Shown one piece after another: positions 3,651 to 19,001 of a DNA stretch of 19,077 nt. Position numbers and translations under genes: made by a program. The stretch's first letter is position 1; each line of letters starts with the position of its first letter. The stretch lies in assembly GCA_030017475.1 (NCBI GenBank), contig JASEIO010000031.1, forward strand, positions 1 to 19,077, in the 5' to 3' direction. Source of the DNA: a bacterium. GTDB lineage: Bacteria > UBA9089 > JASEIO01. A model generated the notes under the pieces. That model made no database searches. It was not told where the DNA came from and saw only the letters and a list, made by a program, of their open reading frames with translations.

Positions 3651-4379
3651 TTATTTAGCTATTCCCTTCTGCCTGATATGGGCATTTATTTCAAGAAGTT
3701 CTTTCCTTTTATCAAGTAGATTAATAACCTCGGAGATATCAATTATCTCTCCTTCCTTATATAATCTTCTGTAAATCTCACGGATTAATGTCAAGTCTTC
3801 AATTGTGTCTACAGTTAGACGTAATTCAGGCCTTCTTAAGTATGGCTCTGTCTCTAATATCTCCAATCTAAACATATCCGGTCTTTCATGGATAAATGTA
3901 GATACATGTTCACGATGATAATGTGTCTTTTCTAAGCAGGAATGGGTTTTAATAAGTGCCTTTATACTGAGAACCTCAGTACCGAGTCCTAATGGCAAAA
4001 CATCCATGGTAGTACAGTCAGCCGATGTCTCTATATGATGGTGAACCATCCTATCAACCACCTCTATGGCCAATAATGGGTTATCTCCGGTAGCTCGAAC
4101 TATCGGATCTATATTGAATCTTTTAGATGCATCTATATATCGTTTCAATACATCATCTTCCTCCCCTACAAAATACTCTATTCCGCATTTCCGAGCTACA
4201 TCTAATATTCCTTTGTTGTTTTTATAGGAGGTAGCAACAACTAATATATCTAAGGTACTTATCCTTTTTAATCTTTCAATAATATGCCAGAGCATTGGAT
4301 GGCCTTCTATATCCATTAGTACCTTGCCAGGTAATCTTTCGGATTCCATTCTGGCCTGGATAATAGCTCCTATCTTCAT
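3651..4379 (-). CDS. SpsF-type acylneuraminate/CMP-sugar cytidylyltransferase family protein
   Basis: This is a nucleotidyltransferase of the SpsF/CMP-Kdo synthetase-like family, which activates a sugar acid with a nucleotide, usually CTP. Visible motifs are IIQARMESERLPGKVL at the N terminus (nucleotide loop), RATGDNPLL around residue 95, PLGLGTEV, REHVSTFIH and RLTVDTIEDL. These are the usual order for SpsF. The open frame reaches an ATG at 4391, but I prefer the ATG at 4379 because GGAG (4389-4386) lies six bases upstream and homologs begin MKIGAIIQ. That gives 242 residues. It is the last gene of the - strand train. Substrate is not predictable; the presence of IolB and an ATP-grasp enzyme next door suggests an unusual acidic sugar. 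No terminator hairpin is seen after it. Confidence 0.85.
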   Translation of the reverse strand: MKIGAIIQARMESERLPGKVLMDIEGHPMLWHIIERLKRISTLDILVVATSYKNNKGILDVARKCGIEYFVGEEDDVLKRYIDASKRFNIDPIVRATGDNPLLAIEVVDRMVHHHIETSADCTTMDVLPLGLGTEVLSIKALIKTHSCLEKTHYHREHVSTFIHERPDMFRLEILETEPYLRRPELRLTVDTIEDLTLIREIYRRLYKEGEIIDISEVINLLDKRKELLEINAHIRQKGIAK

Positions 4380-4420
4380 CATTTGCTCCATTCACGCATA
4401 ACAGCTTATGAGTAATAATT

Positions 4421-4448
4421 CGCTCTGCAATCTGCTATCTACTCGTAG
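4421..4448. repeat. Degenerate 7-bp periodic repeat at the 3' end of the DUF362 gene
   Basis: Four successive heptamers, CGCTCTG, CAATCTG, CTATCTA and CTCGTAG, share a loose C-N-N-T/C-C-T-R pattern. They cover the last codons and the TAG stop of the DUF362 gene. The similarity is weak and would not be called on its own. It is noted because clearer heptamer arrays occur at 6076, 6430 and 15837. Confidence 0.3.
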
Positions 4449-5637
4449 CATCACCAAAGGATGAGGGATCAGCATATATGTAAGGTAACCCTACCAACTT
4501 CCTAAAGAAATCCCGAATTAAGAATCCTTGGGGTGGGCAACCAGGGATGTATTCTCCTACCCGAACATTCCTATTACACCTTCCTATAGCTATCAACTTA
4601 CCTTTGAAATCTTTAGGGGCTTCTGCCTTAGGACCTATCAAAACACAAATCGCTCCATACCTATTTTTGATTAATGCCAGCTCCCCTTTTTCTTTCATCC
4701 TTTGCAATGCCACTACTAATCCTCCTATACATCCTGAACAGGCCGCTCCATCAATAAGATTAATACCAGGATACCCCTCCTCCTGACTAATCTTCGTTGG
4801 AGGACGCCTAAACCCCTTTGCTACTCGCTTAATATCTTCACCCTTTATATCGACCTCGTTTATGTTTATTGACCCAAGCCCTGCTTCATAGGCATATACT
4901 AAATGTTTAACCTCCGCTGGATCGTAACCCATTATAATACTCGCCACACTATCTACAGAAACAGGATTTCGCCCAGCCATTATAAGATTCATCTCCACTG
5001 GATCGCCACTTATAGGACCTAAGCCTTCTTGTCCTATAATTCCATCAATGAGAATCAAGTGGGGGGTGAAGATTAGATTTATGTCAGCTATCCCTTGATC
5101 TAGGTCTATGAGATGTAATCTTTTTTTTTCACTCGGTGGCAGAATGCCTTTCAAATTCTTTAGGCTAACAGATATTTGGGTGTGTATATGTGTTTTTAGG
5201 AGTGGTATGTTAATGAGTATATCAGATTCCGCAACACTTCTTGCTACTTGAATCTTTTTAAATTTCTTTGCCCGTGGGATTTCCATTTCTATTACACGAT
5301 CCTTATTTAGGTCTACCAAACGAACATCTAATCTTTTCGCCAATTCATAATATCCAGTTGCCTCAAATACCCTTTTTGTATCCAACCCAATAGTTGGACC
5401 ATCTCCAATAAGGATATCTTTACTGCCAGCCTCCCAGCATAATCTGACCACTGCCTCCACAACCCATGGATTTGTAGTTGCTCCACTCCTCCAATCCATA
5501 TCTATGCACAAATTTGGTTTTATAAATACCGAAGCCCCTCGAGGTATTATCTCTTCTGTCCCACCAATTAGATCAATAGCCTTTTTAACAGCGGTTTCTA
5601 TATTATTATCGATTTTTACGATCGATACCTTTCCCAT
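4435..5637 (-). CDS. DUF362 family protein with a four-cysteine C-terminal extension
   Basis: Residues 1-270 form a DUF362 domain, seen from SVFIKPNLC (37-44), LIGDGP (76-81), INIPLLKTHIHTQISVSLKNLKG (143-164), LIDGIIGQEGLGPISGDP and SVDSVASIIMGYDP. Family function is unknown, though some members accompany ferredoxin domains. Here the C-terminal 110 residues instead hold CSGC (300-303), GRCN (C354) and GCPP (C367). These four cysteines could bind an iron-sulfur cluster or zinc. No signal peptide or membrane segment is visible, so it is probably cytoplasmic. The ATG follows directly on the TAG stop of iolB (TAGATG), so translation is coupled. It may supply an electron-transfer or metal step to the neighbouring sugar pathway, which is inference. 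Confidence 0.8.
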   Translation of the reverse strand: MGKVSIVKIDNNIETAVKKAIDLIGGTEEIIPRGASVFIKPNLCIDMDWRSGATTNPWVVEAVVRLCWEAGSKDILIGDGPTIGLDTKRVFEATGYYELAKRLDVRLVDLNKDRVIEMEIPRAKKFKKIQVARSVAESDILINIPLLKTHIHTQISVSLKNLKGILPPSEKKRLHLIDLDQGIADINLIFTPHLILIDGIIGQEGLGPISGDPVEMNLIMAGRNPVSVDSVASIIMGYDPAEVKHLVYAYEAGLGSININEVDIKGEDIKRVAKGFRRPPTKISQEEGYPGINLIDGAACSGCIGGLVVALQRMKEKGELALIKNRYGAICVLIGPKAEAPKDFKGKLIAIGRCNRNVRVGEYIPGCPPQGFLIRDFFRKLVGLPYIYADPSSFGDATSR

Positions 5638-6444
5638 CTATTTTATCCAGGAGTGCACCGGATCTTCACTAAACTTGAGGAATCGAGTATTGCCTGCTAA
5701 TACCCAAAGGTAATAAAGTGAGTATCCAGGGGCTGCTACTACCGGATGGTAACCTTCTGGAATTATCACCACTGAACTGTCATGTACATAAAAGGTATTA
5801 TCTACCTTTTTCGTAGATGTATAGATTCCTTGTATTCCAAATCCCTGTTTTGGGGTGACTTTAAAGTAATATAATTCCTCAAGACATGCCTCTTGTGGAA
5901 GGTTATTTTCATCATGCTTATGGGGTGGGAAACTTGACCAGTTTCCAGGAGGTGATAATGTCTCTCCTACAAGTAGAACTCTTGCTGGGAAATCTTCTCC
6001 TACGATATCCCTTACTTCCCTCTTGAAATTTTCTCTACCAACTGTTCTGCATTTGACCTGATTTGGTGTAATTAACTGTGGACTGTGGATTGTGGATTGT
6101 GGACTGTGGACTTCTCCTTTGCAAACAGCTATCTCTACATCACGTTCTCCAGTCACTGTATATGTTGTATTTTGCGGAATGTAAACGGCATACGGTAAAC
6201 CAGAAAATACATCTTTTCTATAACCAACAGGATTCAAAATCTCTCCATCACTTTCTACCTTACATATTCCAGAAAGTACAACTAACACTAATTCACTATT
6301 CTTTGCCTTATCCTGATATTTCTCTTTGCTCCCAAGGCGTAATATACCAAATTCTATAATATTGAGCTTACTACTCTTAGGATTAACAATTGATGTATAT
6401 CCATACCTCTCATGATATTGATATAAATACTCCTCACTCCTCAC
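5638..6444 (-). CDS. iolB: IolB/KduI-family 5-deoxy-glucuronate isomerase-like protein
   Basis: This is a double-cupin isomerase of the IolB family, known to convert 5-deoxy-glucuronate to 2-deoxy-5-keto-gluconate in inositol breakdown. The catalytic C-terminal cupin is complete. SPPGNWSSFPPHKHDE carries H175 and H177, CLEELYYFKV carries E189/E190, and IPEGYHPVVAAPGYSLYY carries H233, matching the usual metal ligands. The 268-residue length is normal. The only usable start is a GTG at 6444, which lies inside a 7-bp repeat array and overlaps the previous stop (GTGA). Residues about 112-124, the linker between the cupins, are encoded by a second 7-bp array. No other inositol genes are nearby, so the true substrate may be a different uronate or deoxy-uronate. 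The family call is firm; the exact reaction is not. Confidence 0.85.
   Translation of the reverse strand: MRSEEYLYQYHERYGYTSIVNPKSSKLNIIEFGILRLGSKEKYQDKAKNSELVLVVLSGICKVESDGEILNPVGYRKDVFSGLPYAVYIPQNTTYTVTGERDVEIAVCKGEVHSPQSTIHSPQLITPNQVKCRTVGRENFKREVRDIVGEDFPARVLLVGETLSPPGNWSSFPPHKHDENNLPQEACLEELYYFKVTPKQGFGIQGIYTSTKKVDNTFYVHDSSVVIIPEGYHPVVAAPGYSLYYLWVLAGNTRFLKFSEDPVHSWIK
6076..6110. repeat. Five-copy 7-bp tandem repeat inside iolB
   Basis: Five adjacent units read CTGTGGA, CTGTGGA, TTGTGGA, TTGTGGA and CTGTGGA on the + strand, with a partial CT after. They are in frame within iolB and encode part of the stretch VHSPQSTIHSPQL between its two cupin domains. Because 7 is not a multiple of 3, gain or loss of one or two units would shift the frame, while three would keep it. 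Confidence 0.9.
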
Positions 6445-6458
6445 TCCTCACTCCTCAC
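6430..6458. repeat. Four-copy 7-bp tandem repeat spanning the GH57-like stop and the iolB start
   Basis: On the - strand this reads GTGAGGA four times plus one G, all perfect. The third copy gives the iolB GTG start, and the TGA stop of the upstream gene overlaps that start. Each copy carries a GAGGA purine run, so the copies upstream also provide a ribosome binding site; the first copy lies about seven bases before the GTG. Both coding ends therefore consist of repeat sequence: the upstream protein ends VRSEE and IolB begins with the codons for VRSEE. Confidence 0.93.
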
Positions 6459-8729
6459 TACCACAAGTCCTGCATTTATATTCTGTGCCTGACGTCTGGT
6501 AGAATTCAGGTTATTATTATGGCCTAAAAAACTAAAACCTATTGAATTATGTCCTCTCCAGAAGGAAGAGCCTGTATCGTCCAGCTCTCCAATTGAGTGA
6601 TACACCCTAAAAAGATAGGAATCCCTGATCTCTTCATACTCAATTAATGGAACAGAATAGAGTTTCTTTTTATCGGTGGCAATGGTTATTCCGTATTTTT
6701 TATCCGATATATCCACCCAACCTTCTGTAGCACCAAGACAGTTCATACAAGATACATCAAAATTTGCTGGTAGATTCTGCTTTATCGTCTTATTATGGGT
6801 AAAGTAGGTTTCCGAAATATCCCCTCCATTTACCACTGTATATCGAAGGGACTCTTTGTCAAATGCCCTTGGGTTAAGGGTTGCAATCCCTATTCTAAAG
6901 ATCATAGGATGGATATCATTTAGATAAAATTGATAGACCAAATCAAGCCTTGAAATATTTGTATAAACGTAATACCTCTTCAAAAATGTACCAGGTGGAA
7001 TGGATATTTCACATTCAATTGGAATCCTTATGGGGTAATCCTCTAAGGAGTCTGGAATATTAAAGATGGTGCGTTTGGTATCATTAAACTCCATCCCCTT
7101 AATATCTCTTAATATCAAACCACCTGAATAATAGTCGTTTGAATGGGCAATATGGTCGTAGTATAAAGGGGTTAAATAGCCAATAAGGATCTCTTTTGAG
7201 ATATGAGGGAAGATTAACCTTCTTATATCTCCTCCTGTTTCTTGTGATAGTCTCAGGTGAACAAAAGGGGTCTTTACAGTACAGATATCTCCTTTTAAAT
7301 CTATCTTTGCATCTTTGTAATCAATAGTCTTCTCTACAAATTCTCCTTGTTTTATCTCTCCACTTCGGAGAGATGGAAGTATAACTACCCGAGCCTTTCT
7401 TAAAGAGCCGTCTTTATAATACTCCTTTTCTTCAAGTTGGGTAGGGACCTCTTCTGAATCAAGAAGACAGATCAAATTCCGTTTAAATCTTCCTGGACGA
7501 AATCTCATATCAAATGGATATGGTTCTTGGTGCCAGTCATTGTTTGTAGCATTAATCAGTAAGAAATCCTTTTTTATTGGTACACGTTTTAGGATATCCT
7601 CCTTTATCCTTTTATACCTTGCTAAAGAATCACCCATCCTATTTCTAAAATCGATATATTTTTCATCAATTGTATTTGTCCTAAAATCTGATGAAAATAA
7701 GAAGTTTAGATCCCTCCATAAATTATCTGAACTTGAGGAATCATTAAATATCTGTTTAAGGCGTTCTAATCTTTTTATTCCTTGATAAAGCTGATAGCAC
7801 TGAGAATTTATCTTAACATCATCCCGACCCGAAACAGCCCATCTCGCAACATTATAAAAATCTCTATTTTTACAAGGGATAGGACATTCTGGGGAATCTA
7901 TACGAAGCTCTTCCTGGGGAGGGAAGATTTTTAACACCTCTTTGGGGGTGACTAATCTAAAGATATCTTTATTTGAGATATAGGTGAACAAGTCCCTCAT
8001 TCTTTGAAACTCCTCTATAATAACATTCTTTATTCCAGGCCTATAACCAATAAGTTCCCAATCAGTACCATAAAGGATAAATGCACGATCTTCTGAAGAG
8101 GAATGGAGCTCATGGATACTTTTTAAGTAATCCCTAAATTTTATTCTTCCATGGATATATCGCTGAAATTTAAATGAGGTTAAGGAGGAATTCCAGATTA
8201 GGTTGATTTTTTCGCCGTACTGCCCCACCAAGATATTTGGTCTGTATTTATAGTGTAGGGGATAGGGATTATATTCAGAGGCATTATCCCAATCCATGAT
8301 AATATTTTCATAGCCTGCTTTTAAATAAATGGAGATTAATCCAGGAGAATAGGTCATTTCGTTTAAAAAGGCAGTTTCAGGTTTCCTTCCTAAGATATTT
8401 AAGTAATCCATATTTCCAAGGCGTAGGTTTTTTATATTAACATCGGCTGGAATCAAAGGAAATATAGTCTGCGTAAACCCAGATCCGATTATTTCACATT
8501 TCCCATTTTCCCAATATTCCCTCAACTTTTTAACAAATGATGGATCAATCTTAGAGATAATATCTAAGGTAAAGGATGAAAATTCAAGGCCAAGCTTTAT
8601 ATCTAATTCATCCAAAAGTTCTAAGGTTGGCCAATAACAGTTATCAATAACAAAGGAATATTGATCCTTTGGGATTGAAGAAAAGGCAAGATTGGCATGA
8701 AATATAGTATAAAGATACAATCTTTTCAT
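6441..8729 (-). CDS. GH57-like (beta/alpha)7-barrel glycosidase-related protein
   Basis: This 762-residue protein resembles glycoside hydrolase family 57/38-type barrels. The N-terminal FHANLAFSSIP with H11, the NCYWPTLELL segment (30-39), EIIGSGFTQTIFPLIP (79-94), FLNEMTYSPG with E124 and LYGTDWELIGYRPG with D223 occur in GH57 order. E124 is the likely nucleophile and D223 the likely acid/base. The C-terminal half (from about 400) appears to be beta-rich and includes ETGGDIRRLIFP, like the sandwich domains of such enzymes. No signal peptide is seen, so it should act in the cytoplasm. Substrate is unknown. The ATG overlaps the ATP-grasp stop as TAATG with GGAG just upstream. The last codons lie in a 7-bp repeat shared with iolB. 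The family call rests on motifs alone. Confidence 0.65.
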   Translation of the reverse strand: MKRLYLYTIFHANLAFSSIPKDQYSFVIDNCYWPTLELLDELDIKLGLEFSSFTLDIISKIDPSFVKKLREYWENGKCEIIGSGFTQTIFPLIPADVNIKNLRLGNMDYLNILGRKPETAFLNEMTYSPGLISIYLKAGYENIIMDWDNASEYNPYPLHYKYRPNILVGQYGEKINLIWNSSLTSFKFQRYIHGRIKFRDYLKSIHELHSSSEDRAFILYGTDWELIGYRPGIKNVIIEEFQRMRDLFTYISNKDIFRLVTPKEVLKIFPPQEELRIDSPECPIPCKNRDFYNVARWAVSGRDDVKINSQCYQLYQGIKRLERLKQIFNDSSSSDNLWRDLNFLFSSDFRTNTIDEKYIDFRNRMGDSLARYKRIKEDILKRVPIKKDFLLINATNNDWHQEPYPFDMRFRPGRFKRNLICLLDSEEVPTQLEEKEYYKDGSLRKARVVILPSLRSGEIKQGEFVEKTIDYKDAKIDLKGDICTVKTPFVHLRLSQETGGDIRRLIFPHISKEILIGYLTPLYYDHIAHSNDYYSGGLILRDIKGMEFNDTKRTIFNIPDSLEDYPIRIPIECEISIPPGTFLKRYYVYTNISRLDLVYQFYLNDIHPMIFRIGIATLNPRAFDKESLRYTVVNGGDISETYFTHNKTIKQNLPANFDVSCMNCLGATEGWVDISDKKYGITIATDKKKLYSVPLIEYEEIRDSYLFRVYHSIGELDDTGSSFWRGHNSIGFSFLGHNNNLNSTRRQAQNINAGLVVVRSEE

Positions 8730-9922
8730 TATCTCCCCTTTGTTATTATCTTAATCATATCCCGGGCCTTTTCACATCTTCTGATTGCATCACTCCGGGT
8801 CTCTCCATAAGCAATTATATGTCCAGCTTTTCGCATATTATCAACTTGTTCCGTAACTACATCACCAATTTTCACATTTATAATAACATCTTTAACCCCT
8901 TGAAGATTCCGTGCCTTATCCACACCCGTAATTTTAATCACACGGCCTGGCTTAGGAATCAATGCCCTTTCACAAGCAGCATGGTTAAACCTTGGGGTTA
9001 TATCCCTTATATCAAGCGGATTTCCTAAGGAGAGATCTATAACTGCCTTTATGCAATCCATCCCTGTAGCTAATGGAGCAGTTGCTTGGCAATGAAATCC
9101 ACCTGATAAACGTGCAGCGAGTTCGCCTATCATAGCTCCATTTTTTGTCACCTTCATATCACATTTGGCAGCACCCCAGTCTATCCCAAGAGCCTGAATT
9201 CCAGTTTTCATCACCTCGAAGGCGTTATCAAGTTGTGAACTATGTAGCGAAGATGGAATGGTATGGCCAGTCTCCACAAAATAGGGCTCAAATTCTATTA
9301 TCCTATCAGCTATAGTCAGGAGGTGTATTTCACCATTATACACAATGGTATCGATAGAGAGTTCTGGTCCTTCCATCCATTGCTCAATTATTACGGACTT
9401 AATATCTGACCATTCCAAGGCCTTATAGAATGCCTCAGAGAGTTGGTATTTGTCTTTCACACCCTTTACTCCTCGTGCCCCCATATTATCCACTGGCTTA
9501 ACTACTAAGGGATATCCTAACTCCTCTCCTGCTTGAATAGCATCTTCGATCTTCTTAACCTCTCGAAAATCTGGAGATGGAACACCTCTTTCTTTGAATC
9601 GGCGTCGCATCTTTGCCTTATTGGTTGCAAGAAGAGCCACCTCTTCGGAAATCCCTGGTAGTCCAAGCTTTTTTGCAATTGCCGAAACAGTCCTTGAGCG
9701 ATCCGTACCAATTGTTAAAACCCCATCTATTTTATATCTTTTAGCTGCATTGATCGATCCCGGAATATCTTTTGTTGAGACCAATTCTTTGTAGGTTGCA
9801 AATTTAAATCCAGGGGCTGCAGGATTGATATCAGTCGCTAATACCCGAAGACCCATACTGCGGGCCTTCTTTATCGCCGCAACCTGCATTATCCCTGCCC
9901 CAATAATCATTACTGTCTTCAT
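8729..9922 (-). CDS. ATP-grasp carboxylate-amine/thiol ligase-like protein
   Basis: This is a three-part ATP-grasp enzyme, which activates a carboxylate as an acyl-phosphate for attack by an amine or similar group. The N-terminal Rossmann-like part begins KTVMIIGAGIMQVAAIKKA and includes LRVLATDINP. The ATP-binding core has PLVVKPVDNMGARGVKGV around residues 137-154, IIEQWMEGPELSIDTI and IGELAARLSGGFHCQA near residues 265-280, including the metal-binding Glu and Arg. The C-terminal part (from about 310) resembles an LAL_C2 domain, ending GETRSDAIRRCEKA. Its length of 397 residues is typical of PurK/PurT/biotin-carboxylase-like ligases. It sits between two glycosidase-like genes with one-base TAATG overlaps on each side. 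The substrate cannot be told; a sugar acid is an attractive guess. Confidence 0.82.
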   Translation of the reverse strand: MKTVMIIGAGIMQVAAIKKARSMGLRVLATDINPAAPGFKFATYKELVSTKDIPGSINAAKRYKIDGVLTIGTDRSRTVSAIAKKLGLPGISEEVALLATNKAKMRRRFKERGVPSPDFREVKKIEDAIQAGEELGYPLVVKPVDNMGARGVKGVKDKYQLSEAFYKALEWSDIKSVIIEQWMEGPELSIDTIVYNGEIHLLTIADRIIEFEPYFVETGHTIPSSLHSSQLDNAFEVMKTGIQALGIDWGAAKCDMKVTKNGAMIGELAARLSGGFHCQATAPLATGMDCIKAVIDLSLGNPLDIRDITPRFNHAACERALIPKPGRVIKITGVDKARNLQGVKDVIINVKIGDVVTEQVDNMRKAGHIIAYGETRSDAIRRCEKARDMIKIITKGR

Positions 9923-11271
9923 TATTCAAACCAAAATGAGAAAAGCCGAGCCTCTTTTAGATAAAAGCGAAGTCTTATCCTCTTTCCCATCAAACGCTCT
10001 AATCCATCATTCTTCCAACGAACAAGCTCTCTTGTTGAATTAGAGGTTATTTCTCTACAATCCTCCTTCTTAAATCCTTTAATTACCTCGCCAGAAGGAT
10101 TAAGCATCTCTACCCATAAGGCGCCATTTTCTGCATCTACATTCACAAAAAGGGAGCGTCCTTCAAATAAGATTGGTGTGGTGAGTATGAATCCGGAACT
10201 CAAAGCCCTATAAGACAAGAAACCATCCGTTCTCAGGCGCGCTAAGCCAATTGCGGCTTTTCTTCGGGAGCTATTATGTGGACCATCCCATCCACTATAG
10301 TAGATCAACAATTCCTCCCCTTTCTTAATGATTGGCTGATTTGGGGTATAAATGAGATGGGAATCAAAAGAGCCAGGTTCCCCAAGGGAGATAAATGGTT
10401 CATTTTTATTTACCCTTTCCCAATTTCTGCAATCCCGACTGAATATGAGTTCGATATCTGACGTTTGCGGTTCTGTATGATAGGTCCATAAGAAACCAAG
10501 GTATATATCCTCATAATTAAAACCACTCATTCCATAAAACTGAAGGTCTGGAGGATCAAGTGAATCGGGTTCGATTATTTTCTCTTGCTCACTCCAATTA
10601 ATCGAATCTTCACTTTCCCTAATTGATATTACCCTTTTCATACCGGGAAGATTATCCTGAGGGTAATAGAATGAAGGATTGTGGAGCAATAGGGTTTGAA
10701 AACATACAAAGCGCCCATGCCTTTCATCATAGATACAGTTTAAGACATCGTTCGGCTCACAGAATACTGGATTTCCCGAATATTTTCTCCAATTTAATCC
10801 ATCCTTGGAGAAGGCTACACATCCTCCACTTCTCCCTTTTCTACTGTCCTCCCAATAGATCAACCTGTACCTCTCATCCGAACTTTTGTCTTCCCCAGGG
10901 ATTATTAAAACACTTGGGGTAAGCAAATTTCCAAATCCTTCACTTTTAAGTACGATGTTATTATCCCTTGAACCTAGGTATTCAATAATTCCTAAGAGAG
11001 GCCTTTCCCAGTTAATGCCATCTACTGAAGATGCATAACAGATTGTAATTCCCTCTTCTCCCTGAGCATCATACCACATCCGGAATTCTTGCGTTCTTTT
11101 GTCACGAGAGACAGTTCCATAAAGATAAACAATTTCTGTTTCCCAGGGAAGGGAAGGTTTAAGGATGGGATTATGTTCGGATTTTATAGGTCTGTGACAC
11201 TCCCGGAATACCCCTTTTTTCTCATCAATTATTCCATCATCGAAGAAAAGATACCTACTCATGCCTTGCAT
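9922..11271 (-). CDS. Five-bladed beta-propeller glycosidase-like protein (GH32/GH43 clan type)
   Basis: The protein shows propeller-blade repeats typical of GH32/43/68-type folds. These include YLFFDDGIIDEKKGVFRECH at the start, FRMWYDAQG, SVDGINWERP, SRDNNIVL, YRLIYWEDS, FSKDGLNWRKY, SEDSINWSEQ, FSRDCRNWERV and LLIYYSGWDGPHN. The recurring 'S-x-D-G-x-N-W' blades are clear. I recall similar proteins in Planctomycetes and Lentisphaerae, mostly uncharacterised. A C-terminal 90-residue beta region follows. No signal peptide is visible. The frame is open from a GTG at 11289; the ATG at 11271 has GGAGG three bases upstream, and the ATG at 11262 is also possible. It overlaps the methyltransferase end by 17 bases and the ATP-grasp start by one. 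Catalytic acids cannot be assigned safely, so it may bind rather than cleave sugars. Confidence 0.68.
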   Translation of the reverse strand: MQGMSRYLFFDDGIIDEKKGVFRECHRPIKSEHNPILKPSLPWETEIVYLYGTVSRDKRTQEFRMWYDAQGEEGITICYASSVDGINWERPLLGIIEYLGSRDNNIVLKSEGFGNLLTPSVLIIPGEDKSSDERYRLIYWEDSRKGRSGGCVAFSKDGLNWRKYSGNPVFCEPNDVLNCIYDERHGRFVCFQTLLLHNPSFYYPQDNLPGMKRVISIRESEDSINWSEQEKIIEPDSLDPPDLQFYGMSGFNYEDIYLGFLWTYHTEPQTSDIELIFSRDCRNWERVNKNEPFISLGEPGSFDSHLIYTPNQPIIKKGEELLIYYSGWDGPHNSSRRKAAIGLARLRTDGFLSYRALSSGFILTTPILFEGRSLFVNVDAENGALWVEMLNPSGEVIKGFKKEDCREITSNSTRELVRWKNDGLERLMGKRIRLRFYLKEARLFSFWFE

Positions 11272-12082
11272 ATACCTCCATTGTATCACCTAACCCAAGA
11301 TAGTTCGCAAGCCTTTTGTAGACCTCTTTTATTAAAATAAACCCACCAATCTTTCCAATTATCCTTTCTGGATGAACACCACCCTGTATAATTTCAAGTA
11401 CAGAAAATCCAGCCTGCTTTAAGCACCTTCTGATTGTCTTTGGGGTAAAATCTACAAAATGGTCCTCTGGGTGAACCTCTAACCACCTTTTTCTTCTAAA
11501 TCTACAAAAGGCACCACTGGCATTTGGTAAGGATAGAGCTATAATACCACCTGATTTTAAAAGGCTTCTCACCTTTTTTAATGTTTTTATAGGGTTCGGT
11601 AGGTGTTCATACACCCACCAAAAGGTAACTGCATCAAAGAAGTTATTTGGGTAAGAGACCTCATCCAGCGTTCCAGTTTTAACCGGAATGCCGAGTTCTG
11701 TCTTGGCATAATTTGATGCATATTCTGATATCTCAACTCCATACACCTCCCACCCTCTTTCCTTTGCTACTTCCAAATAGAAACCCAATCCGCATCCGAC
11801 ATCCAAAATCCTTCCAGGTTTTATATATTTCTCAATAGTTTGAAATCTACTCTTAGCAAATCTTACAATATTCTCTTTATCCTCAATATAATCCCTTCCA
11901 TATTGATCCTTATAATTTTTGATAAAAAAGTCCTCTTCATATATCTCCTTTTCAATCTTTGGCTGAGGGCTAAGATATATCAAACTACAGTCCTTACACC
12001 TTACAATATTATGATCATCCTTTTGGCAAAGGATGCGGAAATTATTTCCTCCACACAAATGGCAAGCAATCTCCCTTTTCAT
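11255..12082 (-). CDS. Class I SAM-dependent methyltransferase with N-terminal zinc ribbon
   Basis: This is a methyltransferase of the type found in sugar and surface-glycan clusters. An N-terminal CHLCGG...CKDCSLIYLSP zinc ribbon is followed by the SAM-binding ILDVGCGLGFYLEVAKERG, the acidic loop VYGVEIS, FFDAVTFWWVYEHLPNP and LLKSGGIIALSLPN. The C-terminal HPEDHFVDFTPKTIRRCLKQAGF and LGLGDTMEVYARHE match this subfamily. I chose the ATG at 12082, which has AAGGA three bases upstream and places the zinc ribbon at the very N terminus. The frame opens earlier at 12118 with ATGA overlap, but those twelve extra residues match the C terminus of a decayed paralog (12083-12252). It is 275 residues long and probably methylates a sugar in the carbamoylated glycan. 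The zinc ribbon is intact. Confidence 0.88.
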   Translation of the reverse strand: MKREIACHLCGGNNFRILCQKDDHNIVRCKDCSLIYLSPQPKIEKEIYEEDFFIKNYKDQYGRDYIEDKENIVRFAKSRFQTIEKYIKPGRILDVGCGLGFYLEVAKERGWEVYGVEISEYASNYAKTELGIPVKTGTLDEVSYPNNFFDAVTFWWVYEHLPNPIKTLKKVRSLLKSGGIIALSLPNASGAFCRFRRKRWLEVHPEDHFVDFTPKTIRRCLKQAGFSVLEIIQGGVHPERIIGKIGGFILIKEVYKRLANYLGLGDTMEVYARHE

Positions 12083-12252
12083 ATATCCTTGAACCTTTTC
12101 TGCGCATACCATCATCATATCCCCATATTAAACCTTTTCACTAAGTAGTCCACTGATTTCTTGATTACTCTATTAATCTTCCCTTTAGGTATCCCACCCC
12201 AGGTTACACGATTTATTATCCTAAACCCTAAATTTTTCAATAGATACAGCAA
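12083..12252 (-). pseudogene. C-terminal remnant of a paralogous methyltransferase, frameshifted
   Basis: Between the GT2 stop and the intact methyltransferase, the - strand reads through 45 codons starting LLYLLKNLGFRIINRV, then TWGGIPKGKINRVIKKS and LVKRFNMG, before a TGA at 12117-12115. Shifting frame by one at the GGGG run (12124-12121) continues as MGDMMMVCAEK. The composite aligns with the last 50 residues of the neighbouring methyltransferase: LK..GF, then GG, a lysine-rich helix, then LGLGDTMEVYA against FNMGDMMMVCA. The catalytic N-terminal domain is absent, so this is the tail of a deleted gene copy. The remnant begins in the same frame as, and right after, the GT2 TAA. Confidence 0.65.
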
Positions 12253-13191
12253 TTAATCAAACTCTTCTAAATCATAACCATTACATACTAAATCTAAGAC
12301 CTCTTTATCACTCCTTATATAATAAGCTTTCTCCTTCCTTCTTTTCATTAAGACCCATTTTAGCCTTTTCAATGCCAACCAAAAACATATCAAAAATCTT
12401 GGTTCTCTTTTAAATAGATCCCGTAGGATGAGTAATGGTAGGAAGAATAGGTGGGAGATAATAAGTTTCTTATCCGTTATATTCTTCCAAGTAAAAAGAT
12501 ATGAATTCCGACCAGATATCCTTTTAATCTCGAGGGCCTTGTATTGTTTAATGTTACCCTCCTCTCTATTATACATTATTGCTTTGGGCTCATAGATAAT
12601 CTTCCACCCTCTTTTCCATGCCCTATATGAGATATCTACCTCCTCCCAATAAAATGGATGGTATAACGAATCAAATCCACCTAATTCTAAAAATTTCTCT
12701 CTACAGAAAGCAGCTGATCCACCTGATGCAAAAAGGGTAAGTGAGGTACAATTACATCTTCTATCCTCCTTGACAAAGAAATGTCCCCTTTTAATCTCTC
12801 CATATCTCCTTCCATAAAAGAATTTCCCATCCCAGGTTAATACCTTTGGCATAACCGCAAAGACCTGTTCATTCTCAAAATGGGCTAATAGAGGTGGTAA
12901 TGAATCATTTTTCATCATTACATCATTACTTAACAAGATAACTATATCGAAACATGCCTCTTTAATTCCAATATTTACGGATTCGCCAAAGCCTAAATTT
13001 TTAGATGACTCTATTAACCTAATGCTTGGAAACCGTTCTTTTATAAACTCAGGACTTCCATCTGTAGAGGCATCGTCTACTATTATTACTTCATGTTCTT
13101 TACCATTATACTTGAGAGCCTCAAAAATAGTGGGTAATGTCTTTCCTAAAACCTCTTTTCCATTCCAGTTTGGTATAACAATACTAATCAT
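12253..13191 (-). CDS. Glycosyltransferase family 2 (rhamnosyltransferase-like)
   Basis: This inverting GT-A enzyme transfers a sugar from a nucleotide donor to a growing glycan. It begins MISIVIPNWNGKEVL. The donor-binding VIIVDDASTDGSPEFI is near residues 36-51, followed by NLGFGESVNIGI, LLSNDV in the DXD position, and GGSAAFCREKFLELGGFD leading into FYWEEVDISYRAWKRGW, the usual acceptor/catalytic segment. The C-terminal region (about 235-290) has a hydrophobic stretch ILSHLFFLPLLIL-like and basic residues, suggesting peripheral membrane association. It has 312 residues, normal for the family. Its start overlaps by eight bases the expected end of the radical SAM gene (ATGATTAG), with only a weak purine tract upstream, so translation is probably coupled. 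Confidence 0.9.
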   Translation of the reverse strand: MISIVIPNWNGKEVLGKTLPTIFEALKYNGKEHEVIIVDDASTDGSPEFIKERFPSIRLIESSKNLGFGESVNIGIKEACFDIVILLSNDVMMKNDSLPPLLAHFENEQVFAVMPKVLTWDGKFFYGRRYGEIKRGHFFVKEDRRCNCTSLTLFASGGSAAFCREKFLELGGFDSLYHPFYWEEVDISYRAWKRGWKIIYEPKAIMYNREEGNIKQYKALEIKRISGRNSYLFTWKNITDKKLIISHLFFLPLLILRDLFKREPRFLICFWLALKRLKWVLMKRRKEKAYYIRSDKEVLDLVCNGYDLEEFD

Positions 13192-14143
13192 TTCTTCTTA
13201 TCTTATAGAAATCACAGTTTTTACAGATCTTAGAATGATTTTCTCTAAATTGATTAAAATTTTCTCCTTGCTAGATTGAATCCATATCTTCATTATAGAG
13301 ATTACCTACTGAATATTTAGGCAGCAAACAACAAGGGGTTACATCCCCAAGCATATTAACATAGATATTATCAAAGAGTTCTACACATAGATTATTGGAT
13401 ATGATAAAATCTATCTCACTTTGTGTAAATCTATTTGGCAGAGATTTCCCGTAAAGAGAAAGATTGGTGGTTAAATCAACCCTGTTCCTTTTGGAATAGA
13501 GGTGGGCCTTTCTATAAAATTCATATTCTGAAGATACATCAGGCCTTTTTAGGTTATTGCTACTTATTAAGTTAAGCCTTTGGATATTTATAGAGGTAAT
13601 ATTATTTTCTCTTGCAAAATCGATTATTTGAAAGATATGAACCATATTATCCTTATGCAAGGTTACTTGTAGCCTCAAATGTGGCAGTCCATTTTTCCTA
13701 ATTTTAGCCAAATAGATTATATATTCAATGACACGTTTATCAAAAGGATGTGCGTTAGGATTATTATGGGATTTTATATATTCAAGAGATACCTCCACTC
13801 GATCAATCCCTGAATCGACCAATCTTTTAATCATATCTTTATTTAACAGAAAACCATTGGTAGTAATATAACCCCTTTTTTTATGAGTCTTGCAAAAATC
13901 GATCATTAGAAAGATATCAGGATGAAGCAGCGGTTCTCCCCTTCCACCTAAATTTATCCAAGGAATTTCGGGAATTCGCTCTATAATCTCTTTAAACCTT
14001 TGAAGGTCCATATCCTTTGTCAATTCCTCTTTAGTAAAAAGCTTTTCTCTATTACACATTCCACAATTTAAATTACATCTATTGGTCACTTCAATCTGGC
14101 AGTTTAAAGGTATATCTCTTATAAATCTTTGATATTTACTCAT
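13184..14143 (-). CDS. Radical SAM/SPASM protein interrupted by an in-frame amber codon
   Basis: The N-terminal radical SAM core has CNLNCGMC (C23, C27, C30) for the 4Fe-4S cluster and LGGRGEPLLHPDI after it. A SPASM-type C-terminal domain follows: CVELFDNIYVNMLGDVTPCC, then YSVGNLYNEDMDSI. A TAG at 13273-13271 then stops the frame after 290 residues. The same frame continues QGENFNQFREN and ICKNCDFYKI for 28 codons to a TAG at 13186-13184. In this family the sequence after the conserved Gly-Asn-Leu normally reads I-W-x-G-x-x-F, so TAG replaces the Trp codon TGG. I chose the ATG at 14143, which overlaps the carbamoyltransferase stop by eight bases, although the frame is open to 14182. The full-length end overlaps the GT2 start by eight bases too. 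It may modify a sugar or attach a group; substrate unknown. Truncation removes the last CxxC, so function without readthrough is doubtful. Confidence 0.82.
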
Positions 14144-15824
14144 TTTTCTTAACCAGATAATTTCCCAAAACCAAATGATCAATTCCTGAAGAGAGAAAGC
14201 AATTTATGGCATCCGAAGGTGTACAGACAATCGGCTCTCCTTTGACATTAAAAGAGGTATTTAACAAGACTGGAACCGAGGTTTCCTTTTCAAACTCCTT
14301 AATTAACTGCCAAAAGCGTGGATTTGTATCTTTTGATACAGTTTGAACACGGGAAGTCCCATCAACATGGGTTACTGCAGGGATTATGTGCCTCATATCT
14401 TCTTTTACCCGAAAGACTAATAACATAAAGGGAGACTTACAGTTGCAATCAAAGTACTTACCCACTTCCTCTTCTAAAACAGCTGGTGCAAATGGACGGA
14501 ATTCCTCTCGGAATTTAATTCTCTCATTTACTATATCCTTCATCTCTTCTCTTCTTGGATCAGCCAATATTGACCTATTCCCTAATGCCCTTGGACCAAA
14601 CTCCATCCTTCCCTGAAACCATCCAATGATTTTACCCTGAGATAGCAACTTAGCCGTAACATTCTCAATATCGTCTCTTTCCTCATAATCCAATCCCTTC
14701 TTTTCTATTGCCTGCCTCATTTTCGATTCACTATAGGATGGACCCCAATAGGCATGTTTCATTTGGAAACCTCTTTTATTTCCTAATAAGGTATGATAAA
14801 TATACAGTGCTACTCCTAAAGATGTTCCTCCATCATGGGAGGCTGGTTGAATAAATATATCATGGAAAGGAGATTCTCTAAGGATCCTTCCATTCATTAC
14901 ACAATTTAAGGCAACACCTCCAGCCATGCACAGATTTCTCTTTTTGGTCAACCTATGCAAATAATTCACCAAGTGAATGGCTGTTTCTTCCAGAACCATT
15001 TGTAGGGATGCGGCTAAATCAGCAAACCTTTGTTGCATCTCACTTCCAGGAATCCTCTTTTCTCCGAATACCAAGATGAACTTTTGGGATACATAATTAT
15101 TGAAATCAAAATTCTGGAATGTGAAGTAACTTAGATCCAGCTCAAACCCATCCTTTGTGAGTCTTACAATATTCCTGACCTTGTCATAATACCTCCTTGG
15201 GTCCCCATATGATGAAAGCCCCATGACCTTGTATTCATCACCCCATTCAAAACCAAGATACTTAGTAAACGCTAAGTATAGAAATCCTAAGGAATGAGGG
15301 AAATATATCCTTTTTAAGATCTTAATTTTGTTCCCCTGGCCCACTCCAAAGGCTGTAGTTGCCCATTCACCCATAGCATCAATAGATAGGATTGCCGCCT
15401 CTTCATAAGGGGATGGAAAGAAGGCTGAAGATAGGTGACTCGCGTGGTGTTCAATCAGATAAGATCTTACCTTTTCATTTAGATTGAAATTTTGCCGAAT
15501 CACCCTGAGGAAGTTCCCATATATATGGATAAAATTCGATTGTATCTTAAATAGATTGAATGACCTTGGAAAGGACCTTGCAAAATAGACAGACTTCCTT
15601 AAAAAATTCAATCTATAATCCATATAGAAGCCGATATGTTCTATATCCCTTAATTCTATCCCCCCTTCCTTTAGACAATATCGAATCGAGTTTATAGGAA
15701 AGGCACGGGAGTGCTTTATCCTATCAAACCGCTCCTCTTCACAAGCTGCAATAAGTTCCCCATCCCGGATTAGTGAAGCCGATGCATCATGTTGGCCATA
15801 ATATGTTAATCCTAAGACATACAT
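14136..15824 (-). CDS. NodU/CmcH-family carbamoyltransferase
   Basis: This family moves a carbamoyl group from carbamoyl phosphate, through a carbamoyl-adenylate, to a hydroxyl of a sugar or natural product. The N-terminal Kae1-like domain has VLGLTYYGQHDASASLI (3-19), CEEERFDRIKHSRAFP, EHHASHLSSAFF with H126/H127/H130, ILSIDAMGEWATT with D149, and CMAGGVALNCVMNGRI (299-314). The C-terminal YrdC-like domain has GWFQGRMEFGPRALGNRSILADPRR (401-425) and LNTSFNVKGEPIVCTP. The 562-residue length and all motifs look intact. I chose the ATG at 15824, one base past the TAA of the preceding gene with AAGGGA upstream; an open frame extends to 15887 but overlaps that gene. It implies O-carbamoylation of a surface glycan residue. 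Confidence 0.93.
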   Translation of the reverse strand: MYVLGLTYYGQHDASASLIRDGELIAACEEERFDRIKHSRAFPINSIRYCLKEGGIELRDIEHIGFYMDYRLNFLRKSVYFARSFPRSFNLFKIQSNFIHIYGNFLRVIRQNFNLNEKVRSYLIEHHASHLSSAFFPSPYEEAAILSIDAMGEWATTAFGVGQGNKIKILKRIYFPHSLGFLYLAFTKYLGFEWGDEYKVMGLSSYGDPRRYYDKVRNIVRLTKDGFELDLSYFTFQNFDFNNYVSQKFILVFGEKRIPGSEMQQRFADLAASLQMVLEETAIHLVNYLHRLTKKRNLCMAGGVALNCVMNGRILRESPFHDIFIQPASHDGGTSLGVALYIYHTLLGNKRGFQMKHAYWGPSYSESKMRQAIEKKGLDYEERDDIENVTAKLLSQGKIIGWFQGRMEFGPRALGNRSILADPRREEMKDIVNERIKFREEFRPFAPAVLEEEVGKYFDCNCKSPFMLLVFRVKEDMRHIIPAVTHVDGTSRVQTVSKDTNPRFWQLIKEFEKETSVPVLLNTSFNVKGEPIVCTPSDAINCFLSSGIDHLVLGNYLVKKNE

Positions 15825-15825
15825 A

Positions 15826-18135
15826 TTAGTCCCTTGATGCCCGATACCCAATACCTGATATCCGTAGGAACAATGAGATGGTTCCAATTACTATAAAGTA
15901 CCAAAGGTATCTAAGCAAACTTTGAGTTAACCCTCTAAGAAGGTTAAATAATATATCCCCAATCTTTAAGGGATAAAAGGTTTTCATGTAGGCATTAAAA
16001 CCTATCTTGTATTTAGCTTTAGATAGGAATGCAAATATTTCTTGGGCCACAGTTTGGGTGCGGAGGGAATAGTAATAAGAGGGGACGATTACCATGTCAA
16101 AACCTTCCTCTCTTATTCTTCTTAGAACCCTAAAGCTAAATTTCATTCCTCCACTACCAATCGAAAGATTTGGGTGAACCTCCAAAATCTCTCTTCCTAA
16201 GAGTACAAAAGGTCTAATGGGTTTATTGTCAATCTCTTTCAATAAGTGGCTGAATTCCTTTTCTCGAATTGATGCTATAAGTAATATCCTATTTACCTCT
16301 CCAATTCCATTGAATAATCCGTGTACAATTTCGTATCTTTGCATTTTATTTTTTAGATATTGGTGAAATTTTTTATTTTGCAAATCTTTAATAAGGGCTT
16401 TGTCTATCTTAAAAAGATTAAAGAATCCATTACCATAGAGGAAGACCTGATTGATTAAGGGGTTTGCCTTTAGGTCATCAGCTACAGAATCTTGAGCCAA
16501 AACACTTATAGAGGCTTTAGGAAATCTTTGATTAAGGTCTTTAACAAGTTGGTTTACATGAGTCATATGGTGTGAACGGATAAGTAAGATCCTTTTTACA
16601 GATTGAGTTTCAATTTGAGGAAATGAGTAAAATGGAAGAGTTTCTTCTTGCACTTTTTCCGGAATCTCTATTAAGCCTCTCTTATCCTCCTTATATCTAT
16701 AGATAGTTACGTCATTTATCCTTGTTTCCATGATGTAGTTATTGTTAATGACTTCATCAAGTGCTGGGAAGCCTTCTCTTCCTCCAGACAAACTTTTGGT
16801 TATAACGATGTACCTTGGATTCTTCTTTTCTACATCCCTTAATATTTCCTGTTCATAAGTTTTATTTCCTGCAATATGGGAATCACAAACGAATCTTGTA
16901 ATGGATAAACGATTGGAAAGAAAGTAGATCTGTGCCGCACTATCCCAAACCAATATTCTTTCTTCTGGTTGAGTCCTTCCTTTGATATATTGAGCTACAG
17001 TATCCGAATATGTGAAGATCCCTGTGGGGAAATTAATGCCATCTGTTTGATGAAGACTAATCTCTTCGGGACTGTATCTGAAGTAAAAGTTAAAGCTGCT
17101 CTTAAAAGAATATATTGAAAGTAAGGCGATAGAACCTAAATTTAGAAAGTAGGGGAAATCTCCAATCCCATGTAGATTTAAGATAGCTACTAAACCAAGA
17201 CCAGTAAAGATACTTAATGCTGGGAAGATTTGAATGAAGTATTGAGGGGAAAAGCGTCCACCAACACATATTCCTGCAAAGCAAGATAAAAGCCATAACA
17301 TAAGAAAGATATTTACCCAAATAAGATAAGATTTTAAAATGAATGGAATGATTATAATTGGCATTATCCACAATAAACAGGTTTCTTTAAATATAGGTTT
17401 AAAGAACATCAAGAATCTCCATAGATACCTTGATTTTGGTATGATATTGATATACCTAAGATTATATTTAATTACACAAGAGACATAATCGGATAAAGTG
17501 CCTTTCCACCAAAAATAGATAAAGGGCATTAAATCTATTAATCCAAATCCTCCAATTAACCAGATATAACTCATCAATCCTTCTTTTTTAATCAAAAGGA
17601 AAAGTGCCATTATCCCTAAGTTAAAAAGGGCTACTGGTTTTATTAAAACCGAAATCCCATTTAAAAAACCAGCTCCTAATAAAAATAGAATACCTCCTTT
17701 ATCAAAGTAAAGTAAAAATAGAAGATTGCTCAACACCATTGGGAAGACCATAAATGTTTCTGAATTAGAACCACTTCCTCTATGCATAGGTGCGCTGGAG
17801 AAGATTCCATAGATTAAGGCAGAAACATACCCTACCATATCACCATATACATATCGAGCCAAAAGGAAGACCGAAAATGTGGTAAGTAAGGCATAAAGAC
17901 CAGTAAACAAACGAATTCTAAAAGGAGTCTTCCCAATAGTTTTTAATATAAAGGTATAGATTAGAAAAATAAAAGGTGGTTTATGATCCCATAGATCCCT
18001 ATATAATCTTAATCCCTTAAGAATTCCCAAGCCAAAATAGGCATAAAGACCTTCATCACAATCAAGGGGAATCCTTAAAAAAGGGATCCTCGATAAGAAC
18101 GTTATTAGTAAAATTGCACTTACTATCAAAATCAT
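15826..18135 (-). CDS. Membrane glycosyltransferase (GT39/GT83-like) fused to a GT9-like Rossmann module
   Basis: Residues 1 to about 360 form a polytopic membrane domain with ten or so hydrophobic segments. The first periplasmic loop carries LDCDEGLYAYFG (D27, E28), the acidic motif of ArnT/PMT enzymes that use lipid-linked sugars, followed by LWDHKPPFIF (50-57). Residues 360-490 form a soluble periplasmic-type tail. From about 512 a different module begins, KRILLIRSHHMTHVNQLVKD, with FPKASISVLAQD, NPLINQVFLYG and FDMVIVPSYYYSLRTQTVAQE. It resembles the N-terminal half of GT9 heptosyltransferase-like proteins. A hydrophobic stretch at about 741-758 follows. The 769-residue length exceeds ordinary PMT-type enzymes. 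The ATG overlaps the stop of the broken ORF upstream (ATGA). Final codons lie in a 7-bp repeat. The N-terminal call is firm; the C-terminal call is tentative. Confidence 0.8.
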   Translation of the reverse strand: MILIVSAILLITFLSRIPFLRIPLDCDEGLYAYFGLGILKGLRLYRDLWDHKPPFIFLIYTFILKTIGKTPFRIRLFTGLYALLTTFSVFLLARYVYGDMVGYVSALIYGIFSSAPMHRGSGSNSETFMVFPMVLSNLLFLLYFDKGGILFLLGAGFLNGISVLIKPVALFNLGIMALFLLIKKEGLMSYIWLIGGFGLIDLMPFIYFWWKGTLSDYVSCVIKYNLRYINIIPKSRYLWRFLMFFKPIFKETCLLWIMPIIIIPFILKSYLIWVNIFLMLWLLSCFAGICVGGRFSPQYFIQIFPALSIFTGLGLVAILNLHGIGDFPYFLNLGSIALLSIYSFKSSFNFYFRYSPEEISLHQTDGINFPTGIFTYSDTVAQYIKGRTQPEERILVWDSAAQIYFLSNRLSITRFVCDSHIAGNKTYEQEILRDVEKKNPRYIVITKSLSGGREGFPALDEVINNNYIMETRINDVTIYRYKEDKRGLIEIPEKVQEETLPFYSFPQIETQSVKRILLIRSHHMTHVNQLVKDLNQRFPKASISVLAQDSVADDLKANPLINQVFLYGNGFFNLFKIDKALIKDLQNKKFHQYLKNKMQRYEIVHGLFNGIGEVNRILLIASIREKEFSHLLKEIDNKPIRPFVLLGREILEVHPNLSIGSGGMKFSFRVLRRIREEGFDMVIVPSYYYSLRTQTVAQEIFAFLSKAKYKIGFNAYMKTFYPLKIGDILFNLLRGLTQSLLRYLWYFIVIGTISLFLRISGIGYRASRD
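15837..15864. repeat. Degenerate 7-bp tandem repeat at the 3' end of the membrane glycosyltransferase gene
   Basis: Four adjacent heptamers on the + strand read ATGCCCG, ATACCCA, ATACCTG and ATATCCG. They encode the C-terminal residues around SGIGYRA, just nine bases or so before the TAA stop and directly upstream of the carbamoyltransferase ribosome binding site. The period matches the arrays at 6076 and 6430, although the unit sequence differs. Confidence 0.65.
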
Positions 18136-18260
18136 CCCGCCAAACCATCTCCTATCATCAAAATCTCCTCAATTCCCTTTTCATTCAAGATATACAGCAA
18201 AGAATTCTATGATCAACCGCATCCTGCTAAGGGTGGATTTACAAAGATGATATCAACCAT
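18132..18260 (-). pseudogene. Broken short ORF, possible remnant of a deleted radical SAM/B12-type gene
   Basis: The ATG at 18260 directly follows the TAA of the upstream GT2 and reads MVDIIFVNPPLAGCG. The V-N-P-P pattern is common at the start of B12-binding radical SAM proteins. Then TGA and, two codons later, TAG interrupt the frame. The same frame then runs NSLLYILNEKGIEEIL to GDGLAG and a TGA that overlaps the next gene start as ATGA. Both ends therefore have the coupling junctions of a real operon gene while the middle is missing. The family guess rests on about ten residues and is weak; that something decayed here is more likely. Confidence 0.4.
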
Positions 18261-19001
18261 TTATTTATAAAAACCCCTTAAAGAATTTATCCTAATTTTT
18301 ATCAGTTCTATTAACATCTTAGCTCCATCAATAAAGATATTTAGTTTTGTTTCCCGGGAATTACGCCAAATAACTGGCACTTCCTTAATCCCAAGACCCC
18401 TCTTTTTGGCAATAAAAAGGAGTTCCGCATCAAAGCTGAAGCCTGAAATCCTTTGGCGAGAGAAAATCTCTCGAGCTGTCCCTCTTGTAAATGCCTTAAA
18501 TCCACATTGAGAATCACGAATCCCTCCTATAACCAGTAATCGAACAAAACATCCAAATAGCTTCTCCATACAATGTCGAAATAAGGGTTGACGCACCTGC
18601 AAATCTGAATCTGGTAGGGCGCGAGAACCAATTGCCACCTCACATCCATCCCTCAGAGAATAGAGTAGTTTTTCAACCTCTTCTATTGGTGTAGAAAGGT
18701 CAGCATCAGAAAATAGAACATATTCCCCTTTTGAATTAAGGATTCCATTCTTTACTGAATATCCCTTGCCAGAATTTACTGAATTGGAGATGATTCGTAG
18801 ACCATGGCATTTTTGTCTGAACCTATTTACTGCCTCGCATGTCCTGTCTTTCGATCCATCATCAACTACTATAATTTCATATTTATATGATTTATCAGCT
18901 AAAAAGCGGGAGACCTTCTCTAATGTTTCACATATTCTTCTTTCCTCATTATACGCAGGAATAATTATTGATAAAAATATTCCATTATTTTTGTGGCCCA
19001 T
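18261..19001 (-). CDS. GT2 polyprenyl/dolichyl-phosphate glycosyltransferase (ALG5/DPM1-like)
   Basis: This enzyme is of the kind that transfers a hexose from a nucleotide donor to a polyprenyl phosphate on the cytoplasmic membrane face. It begins FLSIIIPAYNEERRICETL, with YEIIVVDDGSKDRT near residues 42-55, ISNSVNSGKGYSVKNGIL, and FSDADLSTPIEEVEKLL carrying the catalytic DxD-type acids. GSRALPDS, GIRDSQCGFKAF, FSFDAELLFIAKKRG and EVPVIWRNS.ETKLNIF complete the ALG5-like pattern. The length of 246 residues is usual for the soluble form. No ribosome binding site is evident before the ATG at 19001, and no earlier in-frame start is obvious. It is the first complete gene of the - strand train, and its lipid-linked product would suit the membrane transferase encoded next. 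Confidence 0.9.
   Translation of the reverse strand: MGHKNNGIFLSIIIPAYNEERRICETLEKVSRFLADKSYKYEIIVVDDGSKDRTCEAVNRFRQKCHGLRIISNSVNSGKGYSVKNGILNSKGEYVLFSDADLSTPIEEVEKLLYSLRDGCEVAIGSRALPDSDLQVRQPLFRHCMEKLFGCFVRLLVIGGIRDSQCGFKAFTRGTAREIFSRQRISGFSFDAELLFIAKKRGLGIKEVPVIWRNSRETKLNIFIDGAKMLIELIKIRINSLRGFYK

Follow-up and report, generated by a model that had tools for sequence, protein, structure and literature searches.

A recurring ATP-grasp and GH57-like gene set, with IolB as one of several alternative partners, in a probable N-acylation module for sialic-acid-like glycans

We describe a block of packed genes on the minus strand of a 19,077-nucleotide stretch of bacterial DNA (the window), which is the entire contig C36 of a 1.64-Mb metagenome-assembled genome. 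The block encodes an ATP-grasp ligase, a GH57-like protein, the isomerase IolB, an SpsF-type cytidylyltransferase and an S-adenosylmethionine (SAM)-dependent methyltransferase, together with a beta-propeller protein and a DUF362 protein. Our preferred reading, to which we give a probability of roughly 0.6, is that the block houses a module for glycan N-acylation such as occurs in nonulosonic-acid (NulO) clusters for flagellin or surface glycans. The set would probably produce an unusual sugar acid and link it to an amino sugar within a surface glycan of the sialic-acid-like type. Sugars of this type, on flagella and at the cell surface, control motility, adhesion and recognition, and most of their chemical diversity lacks an explanation.

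The gene set recurs in nonulosonic-acid clusters

Translated search mapped 19 loci that carry the GH57-like family, spanning several phyla, and in 15 of them the GH57-like gene is found together with the ATP-grasp gene. L063 and L099 are one genome region, L100 consists of broken copies, and L053 and L062 are close relatives, so that the independent lineages are fewer than the loci. Two of the loci in which no ATP-grasp gene was seen (L094 and L095) begin at a contig end. The recurring set comprises four of the six genes originally proposed as a block (ATP-grasp, GH57-like, IolB and SpsF) plus the methyltransferase, which has homologues in almost every complete cluster. SpsF is likewise recurrent, in 10 of the 15 loci that have the ATP-grasp/GH57-like pair or, within these, as an SpsF-PseG fusion. 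Nonulosonic-acid genes (NeuB, PseG, PseB/C) are found in most of these loci, and Maf glycosyltransferases or flagellin in many.

The original prediction was that six genes, from the propeller to SpsF, act together in no known pathway, and it proposed looking for co-occurrence of the ATP-grasp, GH57-like and propeller genes. The first two do co-occur, and ATP-grasp, GH57-like, IolB and SpsF are found together in unrelated genomes, but the propeller is not recurrent and DUF362 is likewise absent from the other loci. The recurrence of the remainder goes beyond chance and the prediction pointed in the right direction. The absence of a known pathway did not hold up, as the context is that of nonulosonic-acid and flagellin modification, in which sfmABCDE of Shewanella oneidensis is a studied relative (PMC3765264).

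No close relative of the GH57-like protein was found in 18 other genomes of the host phylum, where there were weak generic GH57 matches only, and a contig scan using this protein alone gave no match. A protein search of plasmids returned one match, on pDCAR1 of Solidesulfovibrio carbinolicus, where the gene lies directly 3' of an ATP-grasp gene, with their ends overlapping, within a pseudaminic-acid-type cluster; the plasmid also has an MptE-like gene (Maf belongs to this Pfam family). An alignment of just the window and Solidesulfovibrio proteins retrieved 11 loci in named genomes and, in a survey of 386 genomes, gave strong matches in 8. The identities of ATP-grasp and GH57-like proteins indicate only moderate co-evolution (r 0.39 over 105 pairs that are not independent of one another).

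The ATP-grasp ligase and SpsF

The ATP-grasp protein scores above the cut-offs for both the ATP-grasp core (PF13535) and LAL_C2 (PF18603), a combination of the L-amino-acid-ligase type, and its best solved matches are 4dim and the L-amino acid ligase 3vot. It is 54% identical to its G246 homologue. ATP-grasp homologues with 39% identity occur in Parabacteroides and Enterococcus capsule clusters, next to genes for sugar transferases and DegT aminotransferases, and the strand that encodes the block also carries PMT, GT2 and carbamoyltransferase genes of the window. This is what would be expected if the block served the carbamoylated, lipid-linked surface polysaccharide encoded upstream, and not flagellin, with the ATP-grasp enzyme coupling an amino acid to an amino sugar, as happens in capsule loci. 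We consider this unlikely, since no GH57-like, IolB or SpsF gene is listed for the Parabacteroides and Enterococcus loci, and the ATP-grasp protein of the window groups with that of G246, a GH57-linked locus with Maf-like genes.

The window SpsF groups with the SpsF of other clusters, and a 100/99 split separates these from LegF and PseF. It also stands apart from the host's second transferase (LegF/PseF type, on contig C56), the remaining CTP_transf_3 matches in the host being weak. In L057, L060 and L061 a single reading frame covers both SpsF and a PseG-like hydrolase, fused or joined.

The block could also be a mixed neighbourhood in which only ATP-grasp, GH57-like, IolB and the methyltransferase cooperate, while SpsF, DUF362 and the propeller serve other pathways. 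The set recurs without the propeller and DUF362 genes, and SpsF is separated by 43 bases, but the recurrence of SpsF with the pair, alone or fused to PseG, and a gene spacing that suggests one operon make this explanation somewhat unlikely.

IolB is one of four alternative supplier enzymes

The window IolB exceeds the equivalog cut-off of TIGR04378 (271 versus 205 bits). An IolB gene lies directly 3' of the ATP-grasp gene in L053, L062 and L063, as does a divergent one in L058; in the window ATP-grasp comes first, then the GH57-like gene and then IolB. Counting the window, three lineages have IolB adjacent to ATP-grasp in this way. In L063, IolB is followed by a mannitol-dehydrogenase-family enzyme. 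The metal-site residues of catabolic IolB (HKHD...E...H) are kept in the glycan-cluster IolBs, except in L058. IolB by itself is no rarity: at E<=1e-25 matches were found in 40 of 386 genomes, with neighbours examined for a minority.

Translated search with Pfam support identified four types of carbon-skeleton supplier, never two of them per ATP-grasp locus. These are IolB (L053, L062, L063, L058 and the window), a split transketolase (L052, L061, L096 and L097), a thiamine pyrophosphate (TPP) enzyme of the acetolactate-synthase type (L057 and L060) and an FSA-type aldolase (L055 and L056); none of the four was seen in L059, L093 or the broken L100. The distribution of these genes is suggestive of interchangeable suppliers, in a sample that is small and partly related.

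An inositol derivative had been put forward as a possible substrate. The window IolB resembles the IolB of myo-inositol catabolism in scoring above the TIGR04378 cut-off and in its identical metal-site residues, but the host genome has no match to IolE and no true IolD (best match 245 versus a cut-off of 715 bits), and the gene neighbours of IolB are biosynthetic. Inositol catabolism was rejected for want of IolE and IolD, and an inositol substrate is for the same reason not supported. A wider catabolic role, in which the propeller and GH57-like hydrolases release a uronate that IolB isomerises for carbon use, would account for the two hydrolase-type folds, for an IolB of equivalog quality and for the neighbourhoods of propeller relatives, which look like glycan breakdown. 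It is nevertheless highly unlikely, given the lack of an IolE match and of an IolD above cut-off, the biosynthetic types of the ATP-grasp, SpsF and methyltransferase proteins, and the location of relatives in biosynthetic clusters.

Two 7-base tandem arrays touch iolB, one at the GH57-like/IolB junction (6429-6459; 4.4 copies, 100%) and one inside the gene (6075-6112; 5.4 copies, 93%). The arrays encode a short insert that homologues lack, and both are among the top-scoring short-unit arrays in the approximately 127 kb of host genome examined. Because changes in array copy number would shift the reading frame, iolB might be switchable.

The GH57-like protein keeps a catalytic pair

Both the Pfam model and the presence of the catalytic Glu/Asp pair place the protein in GH57. 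Its structure model (pLDDT, the predicted local distance difference test, of 91) consists of a (beta/alpha)7 barrel, a helical domain and a mutarotase-like beta domain. The model matches the 4-alpha-glucanotransferase 1k1x with a Z of 31.6 and a root-mean-square deviation (rmsd) of 16.4 over 519 aligned residues, indicating that the orientation of the domains differs, and GH57 amylopullulanases with a Z of 27 to 29 and an rmsd of ~2.6 over ~330 aligned residues. Foldseek also aligns it with GH38 mannosidases across the full length. Residues E124 and D223 are invariant in 17 aligned sequences. Their counterparts in the alignment with 1k1w are the Glu and Asp known as the nucleophile and the acid/base, respectively, of the Thermococcus enzyme. 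A deacetylase role for the barrel was considered, as the modelled fold also matches polysaccharide deacetylases, yet the conserved residues are the GH57 Glu/Asp pair, and such a role is less likely. While the barrel fold and this pair are shared with the Thermococcus litoralis 4-alpha-glucanotransferase (1k1w/1k1x), identity at aligned positions is ~14%, and the window protein is intracellular and encoded in a sugar-nucleotide cluster.

Gene block and local additions

The features of the window are collected in Table 1. All six ORFs (open reading frames) of the original prediction were found on the minus strand, its domain calls agree with Pfam and equivalog models, and the junctions are as it described, with TAATG at 9922 (propeller/ATP-grasp) and 8729 (ATP-grasp/GH57-like), GTGA at 6441-6444 (GH57-like/IolB) and TAGATG at 5637/5638 (IolB/DUF362). 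The reported gap of 55 bases between DUF362 and SpsF is correct with the ATG at 4379, but is 43 bases with the first ATG at 4391. The limits of the block had to be redrawn. It does not start at the propeller, as the methyltransferase gene ends inside the 5' end of the propeller gene (for which an alternative GTG start is possible at 11289) and same-strand genes run to 19001. There are thus at least seven packed genes in place of six, and the overlapping methyltransferase, which had been omitted, is recurrent with the set.

Table 1. Features of the window
Feature	Coordinates	Strand	Evidence and place
SpsF-type CMP-sugar cytidylyltransferase	3651..4391	-	PF02348 (CTP_transf_3) 118 bits; core of recurring set
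DUF362 protein, C-terminal CxxC...C...GCPP motif	4435..5637	-	PF04015 186 bits; local addition, outside recurring set
IolB, KduI/IolB-family aldose-ketose isomerase	5638..6444	-	KduI/IolB Pfam 273 bits; alternative supplier enzyme
GH57-like protein	6441..8729	-	PF03065 81 bits; core of recurring set
ATP-grasp carboxylate-amine ligase with LAL_C2	8729..9922	-	ATP-grasp_4 PF13535 59 bits, LAL_C2 PF18603 73 bits; core of recurring set
Five-bladed beta-propeller, GH130/GH32/GH43 fold, C-terminal beta-sandwich	9922..11271	-	Structure model; local addition
Class I SAM methyltransferase	11255..12118	-	PF13489 94 bits; member of recurring set
Glycan genes: GT2, radical SAM/SPASM, NodU-type carbamoyltransferase, PMT-type transferase, GT2	12253..19001	-	Upstream, same strand

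The upstream glycan genes are tied to the block through gene order only. C36 ends at both window edges and the true neighbourhood may be larger. The PMT-type membrane transferase (15826-18135) has a long C-terminal part with no Pfam match, apparently a second domain fused to it.

Membership of the recurring set was rejected for both the propeller and the DUF362 gene, as they are absent from the other loci and have relatives of their own in unrelated neighbourhoods. The structure modelled for the propeller (pLDDT 88) resembles GH130 mannoside phosphorylases (Z 28) and the GalNAc deacetylase 6n1a (Z 27), and the match to the GH32N Pfam model is below cut-off; a shared fold alone is no proof of function. 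A deacetylase role based on 6n1a is not favoured, as the alignment has no invariant His. Relatives of the DUF362 protein were found at E<=1e-30 in 73 of 290 sampled genomes. Its motif reads C300-x2-C303 ... C354 ... C367, with 7 Cys overall. A DUF362 protein with this kind of CxxC...C...GCPP-like C-terminus (residues 300-367 in the window protein) recurs in unrelated genomes (L142, L143, L145 and L147), where it replaces the ferredoxin-like C-terminus of other DUF362 proteins and is reminiscent of Fe-S sites.

The host genome and points against the proposed module

Outside the window, the host genome carries a nonulosonic-acid/flagellin-type glycosylation island (C56:10629-39157; L115 and L123) with five Maf-like genes. 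NeuC (511 versus 236 bits) and NeuB (432 versus 400 bits) of the island are both above cut-off, and it also encodes a PseF/LegF-type CMP transferase, a transketolase pair and GmhA/HldE-like proteins. C56 closely resembles the Solidesulfovibrio plasmid, whose cluster also holds the ATP-grasp/GH57-like pair, in its radical SAM (3e-156), HldE-like (3e-141) and methyltransferase (5e-95) genes. The host flagellin gene is on contig C67, and five strong DegT-type aminotransferases in the genome could be a source of amino-sugar acceptors. L052 (the Desulfovibrionaceae plasmid) and L115 have in common a module of NeuB, SIS, an HldE-like kinase/nucleotidyltransferase and a GSU2086-family protein, which possibly makes a heptose-based acidic sugar.

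Several observations weigh against an N-acylation module for NulO glycans. NeuB, PseG, Maf and flagellin genes are not found in the window, and the host's only NeuB is on C56; with NeuB, Maf and flagellin on other contigs, the in-genome link to the block is circumstantial, and the PMT, GT2 and carbamoyltransferase genes of the window suggest a different surface glycan. The glycan-cluster IolBs form no supported clade of their own, and IolB may therefore have been recruited in one or in several events. The kinship of the ATP-grasp protein with SfmE is judged from domain content, length and neighbouring genes. The model names no particular step for the GH57-like enzyme, whose gene occurs in two loci where translated search found no ATP-grasp gene. 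In one of these (L054) it accompanies pseB/pseC and lies 2.8 kb from the contig end; in the other (L098:4817-10851) PseB, PseC, NeuB, PseG and GH57-like genes are consecutive, a layout which suggests that the nonulosonate pathway itself is where the GH57-like enzyme works.

A model for acid synthesis and ligation

Gene content, recurrence, catalytic residues and folds were observed here. From this point we infer the substrates, the order of the steps, the final acceptor in the host organism and the part of IolB as supplier. A supplier enzyme (here IolB; elsewhere the transketolase pair, TPP enzyme or FSA-type aldolase) would make a polyhydroxy sugar acid, usually with an NAD(P) oxidoreductase, and the SAM methyltransferase would methylate it. 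The ATP-grasp enzyme would then couple the carboxyl of the acid to the NulO, or to its UDP-amino-sugar precursor, at a free amine, replacing the usual acetyl transfer. SpsF would form the CMP-sugar for use by a glycosyltransferase (Maf in most relatives), and the GH57-like enzyme may act on a glycosidic bond within the pathway. The original prediction of a sugar or inositol derivative that is isomerised, ligated through its carboxyl and activated with CTP for a glycan comes near to this model, and the genes do recur in CMP-nonulosonate and glycan clusters, but neither the inositol substrate nor the six genes as a unit are retained, and trimming by the two hydrolase folds is a putative step.

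More tentatively, these loci may represent a widespread and unrecognised form of NulO N-acylation, with a constant ATP-grasp/GH57-like core and interchangeable suppliers, including an IolB recruited from inositol catabolism, that yields glycans bearing methylated polyhydroxy acids in amide linkage. The GH57-like protein would then belong to a hydrolase family yet work inside the cell in biosynthesis. If so, a constant enzyme pair with swappable suppliers would account for much of the chemical variety of NulOs, the recurring GH57-like family would gain a function, and an ATP-grasp gene adjoining a GH57-like gene would be a simple genomic marker for such glycans. A part of the Shewanella flagellin glycan, 236-264 Da in size and so far unassigned, would also become easier to explain; the genes for that glycan include one for an ATP-grasp ligase.

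Comparison with known systems

A requirement for an ATP-grasp protein has been published for two flagellin glycan systems. In S. oneidensis, sfmABCDE encode NeuB, a TPP enzyme, a reductase, a methyltransferase and the ATP-grasp protein, and each of the five has an effect on flagellin mass. A mutant in the ATP-grasp gene remains able to swim but has a lighter flagellin, indicating that the gene is needed for the full glycan mass (PMC3765264). The glycan combines a nonulosonic acid of 274 Da, which has a basic group, with a nitrogen-free, variably methylated increment of C9H16O7 to C11H20O7 (PMC3765264). The increment would fit an acid with one degree of unsaturation, amide-joined to the amine later seen as the basic group, and a glycosidic link is also compatible with its formula. 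As in sfm, the window has an ATP-grasp gene, of similar length, together with a SAM methyltransferase gene, its relatives share the CMP-nonulosonate/Maf context, and L057 has all five sfm gene types plus a GH57-like gene. In contrast to sfm, the window has IolB in place of the TPP enzyme, no NeuB, TPP enzyme, SDR reductase or Maf was found among its ORFs, and a GH57-like gene is absent from the account of the sfm paper (PMC3765264). The window appears to work like the sfm system without being a member of it. We found no paper in the open-access literature that ties GH57-like or IolB genes to such clusters, an absence that is weak evidence. The NeuB of L057, L060 and L061 is short (~288 aa) and has no C-terminal SAF domain, a length as reported for Shewanella SfmA.

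The second system is the type B flagellin glycan of C. difficile, where mutants in the ATP-grasp gene CDR20291_0245 lack the terminal peptidylamido sugar (PMC5207246). Here too, a sugar of the flagellin glycan depends on an ATP-grasp protein for an amide-type decoration (PMC5207246), but GH57-like, IolB and SpsF genes are missing, and what is added is a sulfonated peptidylamido group, carried on a chain extended with rhamnose. In B. subtilis, SpsF is part of the CMP-legionaminic acid pathway (PMC7439481). The sps genes share the SpsF cytidylyltransferase and SpsG hydrolase families with our clusters, many of which carry SpsF with a PseG-type hydrolase, some of them fused, whereas sps uses the acetyltransferase SpsD and has no described ATP-grasp, IolB or GH57-like gene. 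Taken together, the findings in Shewanella, C. difficile and B. subtilis make ligation of the acid by the ATP-grasp enzyme the most likely central step, by analogy with these systems.

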